A stretch of DNA of 47,473 nt from Gemmatimonadaceae bacterium (GTDB lineage: Bacteria; Gemmatimonadota; Gemmatimonadetes; Gemmatimonadales; Gemmatimonadaceae). The translations under genes were made by a program, and so were the position numbers. The stretch spans positions 1 to 47,473 of the forward strand of contig JADZDM010000029.1 of the NCBI GenBank assembly GCA_020851035.1. The letters run 5' to 3'. Within the stretch, counting starts at the first letter, position 1. Every line of letters starts with the position of its first letter. This document shows, one piece after another, positions 15,440-23,738 of the stretch. The notes under the pieces are model-generated. The model had not been told where the DNA came from and made no database searches. It saw nothing but the letters and a program-made list of their open reading frames with translations.

Positions 15440-18277
<2,838 letters not shown>

Positions 18278-18293
18278 ACCCAGCCTCCGAAAG

Positions 18294-18626
18294 TCACTCC
18301 GAGCGCCCGGTGTCGAGCCCGATGGCTCGAACGCCCCGCGCCAACCCTGCGTCGGTGATGCCGACCGCTGCAGTCTGCTCGCGCCCGAACGCGGCGCCCA
18401 ACTCGTCCGCCGACAGCACCTCGATGATGTCGACGCCCTTCGCCCGCAACAGCGGCACGACCTTCTCCTTGCTGTGCCGGGACGCATCCTGCGCCACGAC
18501 CGCCAGTCGGACCGTGCCCTTCCTCACCGCCACACGCACCTGCTCGACCCCGACCACCACCAGCCGTCCCCTGTAGCCCAGCCCCAGCAACGCGAGCAGC
18601 TTGCGCCGTCCGGCGTCGTCGTTCAG
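18294..18626 (-). CDS. YlxQ-like L7Ae/L30e family RNA-binding protein (probable CTG start)
   Basis: 110 residues from CTG 18626, or 98 from TTG 18590. The L7Ae-type core is visible: KLLALLGLGYRGRLVVVGVEQVRVAVRKG, LAVVAQDAS, SKEKVVPLLRAKGVDIIEV, LGAAFGREQTAAVGITDAGLA. It lies between nusA and infB, the position of ylxQ in many bacteria. A stop codon (18632-18630) is two codons upstream of the CTG. The only candidate starts are the CTG overlapping the nusA stop and the later TTG, and the TTG would cut off the first family helix (RRKLLALLG). CTG or reinitiation at the nusA stop is therefore likelier. YlxQ homologues bind structured RNA; the exact role is unsettled. ylxR is absent. Confidence 0.82.
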   Translation of the reverse strand: MNDDAGRRKLLALLGLGYRGRLVVVGVEQVRVAVRKGTVRLAVVAQDASRHSKEKVVPLLRAKGVDIIEVLSADELGAAFGREQTAAVGITDAGLARGVRAIGLDTGRSE

Positions 18627-19939
18627 GCCTCAGCCCCTTCCGCTGCGCCACCCTCCTCGGTGGCGTCATCGGTGGTGAGCTCGTCGAGGATGCCCATGAT
18701 CCGGTCCGCCTCGGCGGGCGCGATCCCCGGGAGCTTCAGGAAGTCGGTGCGCTCGAGATCAATAATATCGTTGAGCGTGCGATACCCGCCCGCCTCAAGC
18801 ACGGCGACGGTGGCCATCGACAGCCCCTCGAGGGCCGACAGCGGCACGTCGGCCACCGGCTCCTCGGGGAGCGGCGCGAAGCCGGGCCCGCCCTCGGTGC
18901 GCTCGACCCACTCCCGGCTCGAGTACAGGTCGATCTTCCACCCCGTGAGCTCGGACGCCAGGCGCACGTTCTGGCCATTCCGCCCGATCGCCAGCGAGAG
19001 CTGGTCCTCGTCCACCACGGCCTGGATGGTCTTGGTCGCCGGGTCGCTGAACACGCGTGCCACCTTCGCCGGCGCGAGCGCCAGCTTGGCAAAGCGCTCC
19101 GGGTCGGCGGACCAGGGCACGATGTCGATGCGCTCGCCGCCCAGCTCGTTCACCACGGCCTGGACGCGTGCGCCCTTCAGGCCCACGCAGGCGCCGACCG
19201 GGTCGATCGCGTCGTCGCGCGAGAACACGGCGATCTTCGTGCGGCTGCCGACTTCACGCGCCGCGGCGCGGATCTCGACCACCGACTGCTGGATCTCCGG
19301 CACCTCGAGCTTGAACAGGGCCTGCACGAACAGGGGATCAGACCGGCTGAACACGAGGCGCGGGCCCTTCGGCGTGTCCTCGACCTTCTTCAGCACGGCG
19401 CGGATCGTCTCGCCCTGATGGTAATGCTCGCGATGATTCTGCTCGCGGTACGGGATGATCGCCTCCGCCTCACGGTGGCGGTTCAGCATGAGCACGAGCT
19501 TGCCGCGCTCGATCTGCTGCACCTCCCCCGAGAAGAGGTCGCCGACGCGACCCGAGAACTCGTCCTTGATCTTGGTGCGCTCGCCCTCACGCACGCGCTG
19601 CAGGATGCGCTGCTTCGCCGCCTGCACCGCGGTGCGGCCGAACTCGGCGAACTCGATGGGCGTCTCCATCACGTCGCCGACCTCGAAGCTCTCGTCGAGG
19701 AAGCGGGCTTCCTCGAGCGTGACTTCGCGGACCGGATCGGTGACCTCGGCCGACACCGTGCGCAGGCGCACGATGCGGATCTCGCCCTTCGTCTCGTCGA
19801 TCTCGACCTCCGCATCCACGGTCGGGCCGTACTTGCGGCCGAGCGCGGCGAGAATGCCATCCTGCAACAGCGCACGCAGCTCCTCGCGATCCATCTGCTT
19901 GGAGTTGGTGAGTTCCTTGATTGCGTTCAGAATATCCAT
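18623..19939 (-). CDS. nusA: Transcription termination/antitermination protein NusA
   Basis: 438 residues. NusA N-terminal domain (MDREELRALLQDGILAALGRKYG), S1 domain (DEFSGRVGDLFSGEVQQIERGKLVLML), KH1/KH2 (REVGSRTKIAVFSRDDAIDPVGACVGLKGARVQAVVNELGGERIDIVPW; VDEDQLSLAIGRNGQNVRLASELTGWKIDLY), then one helix-hairpin-helix-like C-terminal unit ending FLKLPGIAPAEADRIMGIL and an acidic tail. It binds RNA polymerase and modulates pausing, intrinsic termination and rRNA antitermination. It follows rimP by 18 bases. Because it stimulates termination at weak hairpins, the terminator in the leader of its own operon is of interest. Confidence 0.97.
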   Translation of the reverse strand: MDILNAIKELTNSKQMDREELRALLQDGILAALGRKYGPTVDAEVEIDETKGEIRIVRLRTVSAEVTDPVREVTLEEARFLDESFEVGDVMETPIEFAEFGRTAVQAAKQRILQRVREGERTKIKDEFSGRVGDLFSGEVQQIERGKLVLMLNRHREAEAIIPYREQNHREHYHQGETIRAVLKKVEDTPKGPRLVFSRSDPLFVQALFKLEVPEIQQSVVEIRAAAREVGSRTKIAVFSRDDAIDPVGACVGLKGARVQAVVNELGGERIDIVPWSADPERFAKLALAPAKVARVFSDPATKTIQAVVDEDQLSLAIGRNGQNVRLASELTGWKIDLYSSREWVERTEGGPGFAPLPEEPVADVPLSALEGLSMATVAVLEAGGYRTLNDIIDLERTDFLKLPGIAPAEADRIMGILDELTTDDATEEGGAAEGAEA

Positions 19940-19957: not shown

Positions 19958-20437
19958 CTATCGATTCCAGGTGACAACCAGCCGCGCGCTTTTCACGTCG
20001 GCGAGTGCCACCCGATGTTCCGTTCCCTGGTCATCCTTCACGATCCCCGTCTCGACGCCGGCCCCCTCGTCGATCCCGACCAGCAGGCCCTCGACCCGGC
20101 TGCCCGTGAGGGCGCCACTCGTGACGGCGACCCGCCGCCCCGCGAAGCGCCGCCAGTCGGCAGCATGCCGCAGCGGGCGATCCATGCCCGGTGACGACAC
20201 TTCCAACCTGTACGTCTCAGCGACCAGTCCGCTCCCATCGAGCACGGCCTCGATCGCGCGGGAGACAGCGGCGCAATCGTCGATGGTGACCTTGGCGCCG
20301 TCAGGGCGGTCGATGCGCACCTCGAGCAACGGCCGGTTACGGGTGCCGCCGCCAGTGAGCGAGAAGAGCTCGAAGCCCGCCTGCGTCACTGCCGACTCGA
20401 CGACCTGCTGCACAGCTGCTGCGATGGGTGCCGCCAC
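19958..20437 (-). CDS. rimP: Ribosome maturation factor RimP
   Basis: 159 residues from GTG 20437, with GAGAGG 7 bases upstream. RimP takes part in 30S subunit maturation. Motifs: VVESAVTQAGFELFSLTGGG, LLEVRIDRPDGAKVTIDDCAAVSRAIEAVLD, YRLEVSSPGMDRPLRHAADWRRFAGRRVAV, and a C-terminal Sm-like domain with VEGLLVGIDE. It is the first gene of the nusA/infB operon, as in most bacteria. The leader between its promoter and the start codon contains an intrinsic terminator. Confidence 0.94.
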   Translation of the reverse strand: MAAPIAAAVQQVVESAVTQAGFELFSLTGGGTRNRPLLEVRIDRPDGAKVTIDDCAAVSRAIEAVLDGSGLVAETYRLEVSSPGMDRPLRHAADWRRFAGRRVAVTSGALTGSRVEGLLVGIDEGAGVETGIVKDDQGTEHRVALADVKSARLVVTWNR

Positions 20438-20487
20438 GATCCGACCTCTCACACGCGATCTTTCAGGAACAAACGAGCAGGCAGAAA

Positions 20488-20515
20488 CAAAAAAGTGCGG
20501 GGAGGCCCCCACACT
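20488..20515 (-). terminator. Intrinsic terminator inside the rimP-nusA leader (possible attenuator)
   Basis: On the minus strand a 9-bp stem AGTGTGGGG/CCCCGCACT (one G-U wobble, GCCT loop) is followed by TTTTTG. On the plus strand the wobble becomes a C-A mismatch and no T-run follows, so it is directional. It is about 73 bases past the pgeF stop, but also about 22-48 bases downstream of the rimP promoter start. A shorter hairpin, GCACT-GTGA-AGTGT (20524-20511), shares the 5' base of the terminator stem and could compete with it. Confidence 0.85.
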
Positions 20516-20543
20516 TCACAGTGCAGTACCGAATTGCTCAGGG

Positions 20544-20572
20544 ATCATAACCCGGCGCACCGGCCCGTTCAA
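20544..20572 (-). promoter_or_regulatory. Promoter of the rimP-nusA-infB operon
   Basis: TTGAAC (20572-20567), a spacer of exactly 17 bases and TATGAT (20549-20544) on the minus strand; predicted start near 20537. It lies between the pgeF stop and the leader terminator. The same -35 hexamer and spacing occur at 33202-33230. Confidence 0.7.
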
Positions 20573-20587: not shown

Positions 20588-21301
20588 TCACTTGCGTGTG
20601 GCGGGGGTGATCAGCACCCCGAGCTGGCGACCCGGGTCGCCGCCGCGGTGCGAGAACAGCGCCGCTGGAGCGCAACGGGTGCACCAGGCACTGGTCGCCA
20701 CCTCCCTGACCCCGAGGCGTCGGCAGCGGTCCGCGATCAGCGCCCGGAGATCAACCCGCGTCGGCAGCTGAACGGTCGAGCCCGTCAACTGGGCGTAGAC
20801 GTCCGGGCTGACTTCGTAACACGCGCCGCAGATGGACGGACCGAGGTGCACCCGCAGCGCGCCGGGCGCGAGGCCCTGGCCCGCGAACCAGGCAATGGCC
20901 TGCTCGGTGATGCCGGCCACCGTCCCCCGCCACCCGGAATGGAGCAGCGCCCCCGCCCCGCTCGGGTGCCCGATGAAGACCGGCACGCAGTCGGCCACCG
21001 TCACGGCCGCCGCCACGCCGCGATGGAGCCAGGCATGCCCGTCCGCCGCCGGTGCGCGCAGCCAGCCCTCCCAGCCGCTCCCGTGCGCGACGATCCGGTC
21101 CCCATGCACCTGGGCCGCGGTCGCGAACTGCGGGGCCCCGAGCGCGGCGACTGCGCCGACGAGGGCGTGCCAGCGTCCCAGCACCGCCGAGACCGGCTCC
21201 TCGGCGTGAGTGCCGTAGCTTCCGGCGGCGCGCGCGGTGGTGAACGCCGTCATCCCCCACTCCTCGAAGTCGGGGATGACGAGGCGTTCGGGGAGGGTCA
21301 C
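20588..21301 (-). CDS. pgeF: Multicopper-oxidase-like (YfiH/PgeF, laccase-domain) protein
   Basis: 237 residues of the DUF152 family, whose members act as purine nucleoside phosphorylase/adenosine deaminase or remove mis-incorporated L-Ser from peptidoglycan precursors (PgeF). Conserved marks: [12 protein letters not shown] (metal His), [31 protein letters not shown] (Cys and His ligands), and [17 protein letters not shown]. Its start overlaps the murA stop by 4 bases; this coupling to murA fits the peptidoglycan-editing role, though the biochemical activity cannot be read from sequence. Confidence 0.93.
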
Positions 21302-22694: not shown

Positions 22695-23738
22695 ATGATG
22701 ATGATCCCATTCCTCGCGCTGGTGGCCGACACCCTCCTGGTGCGGCCCGTCGACGTCCCGACTCCGTGGTACAGCGTCGCGAGCGGGGTCCTGAGCATCG
22801 TCGTGACGCTCCTGCTGCTCGGGATCGCAGTGGCCTTGCTGGGCATGGCCCGGGCGCTGAAAGGAGCGGAATCGCGGCTGGGTGGCAGCATGAAGGGGCT
22901 CACCGACGAAGTGCTGCCCCTGGTGCGCAACCTGAACCAGATCGCGACGCAGCTGTCGGAGGTCACGACGGAGGCGCGGAAGGACCTGCATCGCCTGTCG
23001 GGAACGATCGCCGTCGTGGATGACGCGGTGCGTGATGCCATCGTGGCCGGCGAGTCGCGCCTCGCGCAGATCGGCACTCTGGTGGACGCCGTGCAGGACG
23101 AGGCACAGGCAGTCGTGGGGTCGGCGACGGGGATGATGCGTGGCGTGCGCGCCGGTGCCGGCAGCCTCGCTTCGAGCCTGTTCGCGCGCCCGGGGCGCCG
23201 CGCGCCGCGCACCGGGCGTGCCACGCGTGACACGGGCGAACGGACCGCGCTCCAGGCCGAGGAGGCCGACATCCTCGCGCGCCTTGCCGCGCTGGAGGCG
23301 GCATTCGCCGACCAGGACGACGAGGCCGACGAGGAATCCCGCCGCCTCGATGTCGTGGACGACCGGTCATTTCCGCAACACGGGCGTTACGCCGTCGGCG
23401 ACGATGGCGAGGAGGACGAGGAGGCTGCGGATGCGAGGGGCGACCTCGCCCCCGAGGACGAGGACGACGACGCACTCGACGAGGAACTGGACGAGGACGA
23501 GGCCATCGACGACTTCGACGAGGACGACGACGAGGACGACGAGGACGACGAGGACTTTGACGACGAGGACGACGAGGACGAGGACGAAGAGGACGACGAC
23601 GAAGAGGATGACGAGGACGAGGATGACGCCGGGGACCGGGGCGAGGCGCGTGAGCGCGCGCGCGACACCGGCGGACGGCGCGAGCCTGACGCCCCGCGCA
23701 GCGGCGGGCCCCGATTGCGCCGGGATTCCGGCGCGTGA
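22695..23738 (+). CDS. DUF948-like membrane protein with extreme acidic tail
   Basis: 347 residues. Residues 28-51 are one strong membrane helix ([23 protein letters not shown]). Residues 52-150 are a coiled-coil-like stretch with repeated small-residue heptads ([60 protein letters not shown]), as in DUF948/YtxG-type proteins. Then come a basic patch ([14 protein letters not shown]), a short helix, and an acidic tail from about residue 236 to 314; in 271-311, 38 of 41 residues are Asp or Glu. Function unknown. Its stop overlaps the GTG of the phospholipase-like gene (GTGA), so the two are probably made together. Confidence 0.85.
23505..23627 (+). repeat. GAC/GAG triplet-rich tract encoding Asp/Glu
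   Basis: Nearly pure GAC, GAG and GAT codons over 123 bases (38 of 41 codons acidic), inside the DUF948-like gene. The units are irregular (GAC-GAC-GAG mixtures), so the array looks codon-constrained with occasional slippage rather than a satellite of fixed unit. The reverse strand reads as poly-Ser, which creates a false antisense frame. Confidence 0.85.

Follow-up and report, generated by a model that had tools for sequence, protein, structure and literature searches.

The rimP-nusA-infB locus and its leader

The window analysed here, a 47,473-nt contig of a member of the Gemmatimonadaceae, carries a rimP-nusA-infB operon on its minus strand. The first gene, rimP (19958-20437; Pfam RimP_N, 7.7e-19), has a GTG start at 20437-20435 and a ribosome-binding site, GAGAGG, at 20450-20445. 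It is followed by nusA (18623-19939, minus strand; NusA_N, 7.8e-32, and KH_5, 1.1e-28) and infB, encoding IF2 (15440-18487, minus strand; IF-2, GTP_EFTU and IF2_N), whose true start may be internal to the open reading frame. The upstream gene, pgeF (20588-21301, minus strand; Cu-oxidase_4, 4e-38), stops just short of the operon promoter. Elsewhere in the window there is a cluster of tRNA-Pro, tRNA-Arg and tRNA-Lys genes (518-836), ending in a strong intrinsic terminator (547-518), and an ORF at 22695-23738 whose C-terminal half is a long Asp/Glu run.

Direct reading of the sequence agrees with the original prediction of a sigma70-type promoter, TTGAAC-17-TATGAT (20544-20572, minus strand), ahead of the rimP GTG; from its position, transcription is expected to start near 20537. 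No other sigma70-like site was found between 14000 and 27000 (0.4 expected from shuffles), in line with the earlier claim that no second promoter follows the terminator. The terminator itself, predicted between promoter and rimP with one G-U wobble, is present as well. We refer to it as P2 (20485-20516, minus strand; identified from the sequence and by a covariance model, R1, described below, at 38 bits). It consists of a 5′ arm AAGTGTGGGG, a loop GCCT and a 3′ arm CCCCGCACTT (20516-20493), with a U-G wobble at T20511:G20498, a T-run at 20494-20489, a G at 20488 and then TTT. From 20488 to the rimP start at 20437 there are 51 nt. Apart from P2, the window has just one other strong intrinsic terminator, that of the tRNA cluster. 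Termination at P2 would release a putative short leader RNA (20487-20537, minus strand), a product that had been foreseen at roughly 48 nt and that the promoter and terminator positions place at about 50 nt.

Conservation of the terminator stem in Gemmatimonadota

We compared the leader with those of relatives in the order and phylum. A core hairpin followed by a T-run lies just 5′ of rimP in all 43 order-level leaders, with cores of the form GTGGGG..CCCC(A/G)C or, in part of family f2, GCGGGC..GCCCGC; the T-run is often followed by GTT or ATT. The genus of the window has the variant GTGTGGGG/CCCCGCAC. Among 40 further leaders of the phylum, some of them from outside the class, the core hairpin was found in 39, a count that includes two genomes (G060 and G212) that escaped the rule of our script and were accepted by eye from the printed sequence. 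In other families the core is typically GAAGTGGGG(G)..(C)CCC(A/G)CTTTTTTT. The sole exception among the 40, locus L122 of genome G065, lacks the hairpin and carries in its place, near the promoter, an inverted repeat GAAGATTTTCC..GGGAAATCTTC without a T-run. That the same core is conserved throughout the phylum argues that P2 is no accident of one sequence.

In the order alignment stem pairs are retained in 97.8% of cells. Four pairs are invariant, and at three both partners have changed (AU to GC, UA to CG, GC to CG); GGG/CCC is invariant within the stem, and the fourth pair is GC or CG. Conservation sits in the paired stem positions and the T-run, and the loop and the 5′ part of the leader vary freely. 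Of 60 genomes, 30 contain the exact pattern GTGGGGN{2,12}CCCCACNNTTTTT; each has a single copy, save one that carries a further palindrome at another place, and the reversed form has zero occurrences in the same 60. Across the phylum, 117 of 298 genomes contain the exact pattern. The covariance model R1 (35 positions), built from order sequences, matched 115 of the 298 genomes with exactly one match apiece, including the genome of the window, where the match at 20485-20516 is the sole one. For all 76 matches with a listed RimP location, the match is on the same strand and contig as RimP_N, 23-120 bases upstream (median 50). Because the model derives from the order, failures to match in other parts of the phylum come from drift in the outer stem, not from absence of the element.

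As a control we followed the terminator of the tRNA-Lys gene, the window's second strong terminator, for which a related stem was seen inside the genus only. In genomes G003, G005, G006, G007 and G014 it differs or was not found, and yet these genomes keep the nusA-leader stem almost unchanged.

Coupling to the promoter and leader length

The promoter is conserved together with the terminator. A site of the form TTN---N16-18-TA---T, with a spacer that is nearly always 17, lies 8-57 bases 5′ of the stem in 79 of 81 phylum leaders; single promoter scores are modest compared to shuffles, and it is the recurring position that carries the weight. Predicted leader lengths range from 28 to 83 nt (median 58, 81 leaders). 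Many leaders in families f2, f8, f10 and f11 are 28-40 nt long and consist of the terminator alone. Outside the genus of the window, the sequence ahead of the terminator tends to fold into a hairpin of its own, P1, which stops a few bases 5′ of the terminator; segments adjoining the terminator have a mean z of -1.04, compared to -0.04 for controls (62 long-leader genomes, Wilcoxon p 3e-6, kinship between genomes being ignored). In several f5 leaders (L104, L108, L134, L135) P1 has a T-run of its own, making two tandem terminators.

A terminator placed between the operon promoter and the first gene could be fixed and unregulated, merely lowering expression of the operon. The strength of the hairpin (about -17 to -20 kcal/mol) and the leaders of several lineages that are a terminator and nothing else would fit such a role. 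A fixed terminator, however, would need no particular stem sequence, yet this stem is nearly invariant family-wide while the control terminator drifts, and the element occurs at one operon only. We therefore consider this explanation unlikely, though it is the best of the alternatives to an attenuator that responds to its operon's product.

A competing hairpin confined to the genus

The original prediction included a hairpin, GCACT-GTGA-AGTGT (20524-20511), that competes with the terminator. It is real and is shared by the three genomes of the genus; conservation in other lineages was not seen. Predicted folds of the nascent RNA in these genomes show it to be the tip of a larger alternative hairpin (20504-20530, minus strand) of the form GGT / A bulge / CTGCACT-GTGA-AGTGTGG / GG bulge / GCC (20530-20504). 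The overlap with the terminator is likewise real, and it involves most of the 5′ arm, not just the base of the stem as had been proposed. According to the predicted folding, the alternative hairpin holds the 5′ arm until the 3′ arm is transcribed. In the window it reaches about -12 kcal/mol in the nascent RNA versus about -20 kcal/mol for the completed leader with the terminator; for the three genomes of the genus the corresponding values are -12 to -13 and -19 to -20 kcal/mol.

Together the two hairpins could form a two-state attenuator, with the competing one acting as a true antiterminator that some ligand or protein stabilises. In favour of such a switch, the alternative hairpin ties up the 5′ arm and, in 3/3 genus genomes, is the fold predicted for the nascent RNA. 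The comparison is nevertheless limited to three closely related sequences, and the final fold prefers the terminator by about 5-7 kcal/mol. Other genera have no conserved counterpart, their upstream hairpin being separate or absent, and no conservation of the alternative hairpin was found among the other phylum leaders compared. Changes in both partners of a pair, of the kind that the original prediction had suggested looking for in both hairpins, were found for the terminator, at the three pairs given above. We regard an antiterminator switch in the genus as improbable. As a general mechanism it is rejected: leaders range from 0 to 1 in how far their 5′ arm is paired in nascent RNA, and several leaders, the terminator-only ones of 28-40 nt, are too short to hold the hairpin. 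An exclusive antiterminator conserved along with the terminator, the mark of antiterminator-type attenuators, is seen here in 3/3 genus members only. The competing hairpin would be at most a local modifier in the genus.

The element is associated with nusA

We scanned about 85,000 public genomes for AGTGGGN{3,10}CCCACTYTTTTTT. Among the matches listed (114 stretches, 115 sites), 45 sites are directly 5′ of rimP and 20 directly 5′ of a nusA with no rimP in between, 65 in all, compared to 0 for a mirrored control on the opposite side in the same listed stretches. By their record titles, these listed rimP/nusA sites include Clostridia, Nitrospirae, Deltaproteobacteria, Dehalococcoidia, Verrucomicrobia, Pelagibacteraceae, Cyanobacteria, Planctomycetes, Acidobacteria, Bdellovibrionales, Elusimicrobiota, Omnitrophica, Armatimonadetes and Ignavibacteria, so that a related form of the element exists in at least about a dozen phyla beyond Gemmatimonadota. 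At the 20 listed nusA-first loci, tblastn found no rimP on either side within reach, a search that divergent RimP can escape and in which some stretches were short. A separate observation concerns four Flavobacteriia-type loci (L160, L189, L234, L237; e.g. Seonamhaeicola, Hyunsoonleella), which share an identical terminator, AGTGGGCTGTGGTGGCCCACTTTTTTTT, away from nusA. It is preceded by a conserved stretch, ..AATGTCTTATTTAGTTTAGTTGGT.., and the four loci match no Rfam family; from their sequence, they are candidates for a small RNA or leader.

Within Gemmatimonadota, six genomes of family f2, which belongs to the order of the window (G054, G156, G142, G294, G251, G130) have the element followed by nusA as the first gene. 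rimP was undetected in the fetched stretches of these genomes (a match in G130 at E 0.99 is noise), and a genome-wide search of G054, G156, G142 and G130 found no RimP_N; the listed matches of that search do not cover G294 and G251. Another genome of the family, G129, retains a shortened rimP-like stretch. The f2 loci with a nusA operon apparently without rimP are L255, L256, L257, L259, L260 and L261. The presence of the element 5′ of nusA in rimP-less genomes indicates that it tracks nusA, and its association is with nusA over rimP or pgeF. As it stays with nusA in operons that lack rimP, NusA, not RimP, is pointed to as the sensed product; RimP as the sensor is disfavoured by the same loci. 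Because infB comes next after nusA in most listed loci of sufficient length, IF2 may also be considered a candidate.

Transcripts reading through from pgeF had been put forward as an equally good reason for the terminator. On the same strand, pgeF ends some 70 bases further upstream, and its transcripts would be halted by the terminator too. The comparison makes this proposal unlikely: the operon has a conserved promoter of its own, and the terminator comes after it; the element is kept in five genomes (G015, G028, G038, G034, G032) with no pgeF found upstream; and both other phyla and relatives without rimP have it in front of nusA. Blocking of pgeF read-through is rejected as the main role on account of the promoter position and of the pgeF-less and rimP-less loci, and we give the explanation very little credence.

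The near-invariant sequence, the U-tail and the single copy per genome would also suit a trans-acting small RNA, with the 50-nt leader RNA itself being the conserved product. We find this highly improbable, for the free variation of loop and 5′ part around a conserved paired stem and T-run is the opposite of a typical seed. Least plausible of all is a DNA operator at which a repressor blocks the start of the operon: although the inverted repeat TGTGGGG-N-CCCCACA is right behind the promoter, the spacing of its half-sites differs by several bases among relatives, which would rotate them apart and is our ground for rejecting this reading, and the T-run is always behind the promoter-distal arm.

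Comparison with known rimP and nusA leaders

An attenuator in the rimP leader was reported in 2010, with NusA proposed as its effector, and was called the most ubiquitous of attenuators (Naville & Gautheret, PMC2965389). The element found here has the same position in the 5′ leader of rimP-nusA-infB and the same make-up: an intrinsic terminator with a conserved stem, a G-rich 5′ arm, a C-rich 3′ arm and a T-stretch. The 51 nt between terminator and start in the window fall within the 4-130 nt reported for that class, whose general form likewise has no conserved antiterminator, the alternative hairpin here being genus-confined (PMC2965389). The core differs: GTGGGG/CCCCRC here, with a GCGGGC/GCCCGC form in a sister family, compared to GGGc/gCCC (PMC2965389). 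A further difference from the described class is that the element can stand 5′ of nusA without rimP, as it does in some relatives and other phyla, and these nusA-first loci make 'nusA leader' a better fitting name.

Tandem terminators are known 5′ of rimP in Gammaproteobacteria (PMC2965389), including t1 and t2 of E. coli (PMC6511841). The corresponding Rfam family, RF01770, resembles the P1-P2 arrangement of family f5. It covers Gammaproteobacteria only and recovered the E. coli leader at 102 bits as a positive control; it gave no match to the window at E 10 and none in the sampled loci, and an Rfam search of the window returned no leader family. In Streptococcus agalactiae a 31-nt leader RNA ahead of rimP-nusA-infB (gbs0413-gbs0418) was seen by RNA-seq (PMC4448216); though from a different phylum, it resembles the 28-40-nt leaders of several Gemmatimonadota lineages.

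NusA autoregulation has been proposed for this class of leader terminators (PMC2965389, PMC4448216). According to references given in PMC2965389, NusA represses the rimP-nusA-infB operon of E. coli. For B. subtilis, control of nusA by intrinsic termination in its 5′ leader, stimulated by NusA, is reported (Mondal et al. 2016, cited in PMC12288461); the operon position and the proposed logic are the same as here, and NusA dependence was shown by experiment in that species. Papers on transcription starts or terminators of Gemmatimonas were not found in the searchable literature. Nor did the searchable parts of the papers, the 2010 supplementary lists aside, contain a report of the Gemmatimonadota or nusA-first form, for which priority is uncertain. 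The element is thus real, well conserved and largely known in kind, and its occurrence in front of nusA as the first gene is an informative twist.

A probable NusA-responsive attenuator

A terminator that stands between the operon promoter and the first gene, is conserved with that promoter and is tied to nusA is, from the sequence comparisons, best read as an attenuator. We conclude that the region is probably the Gemmatimonadota version of the rimP/nusA-leader attenuator, in which NusA-stimulated termination limits the nusA operon. RNA polymerase starting near 20537 would meet a strong, sequence-conserved terminator within about 50 nt. With NusA plentiful, the factor would bind the elongating polymerase and aid the hairpin in the RNA exit channel, and most transcripts would end as a leader RNA of about 50 nt; when NusA is scarce, more read-through would allow rimP, nusA and infB to be made. 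On this reading, termination would take place at P2 in vivo. The choice of NusA as the effector follows the literature on the nusA operons of E. coli and B. subtilis, and by analogy with them NusA would set the efficiency of termination at P2, although the predicted terminator is so strong that it might fire without NusA. The initial suggestion of a promoter-proximal attenuator tied to nusA has gained from the comparison, with the element kept in front of nusA where rimP is absent and with the leader terminator of B. subtilis as a precedent.

The conservation of the stem sequence exceeds the known needs of NusA-assisted hairpin folding, and a review reports that no consensus motif was found for NusA-stimulated pauses. 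A more speculative possibility, suggested by the sequence patterns and which we hold with clearly less confidence, is that an ancient nusA leader, common to bacteria at large, is at work here, and that NusA or the NusA-polymerase complex recognises its GUGGG/CCCAC stem next to the U-run. The element would then be a sequence-specific NusA sensor and not a generic terminator, would stay with nusA when rimP is lost, and in long-leader lineages the 5′ hairpin might serve as a NusA-stimulated pause or as a first terminator. Most work on NusA autoregulation concerns E. coli and B. subtilis. With a nusA-linked element that occupies one place per genome across Gemmatimonadota, the conservation of exact bases in the stem becomes a directly testable question.
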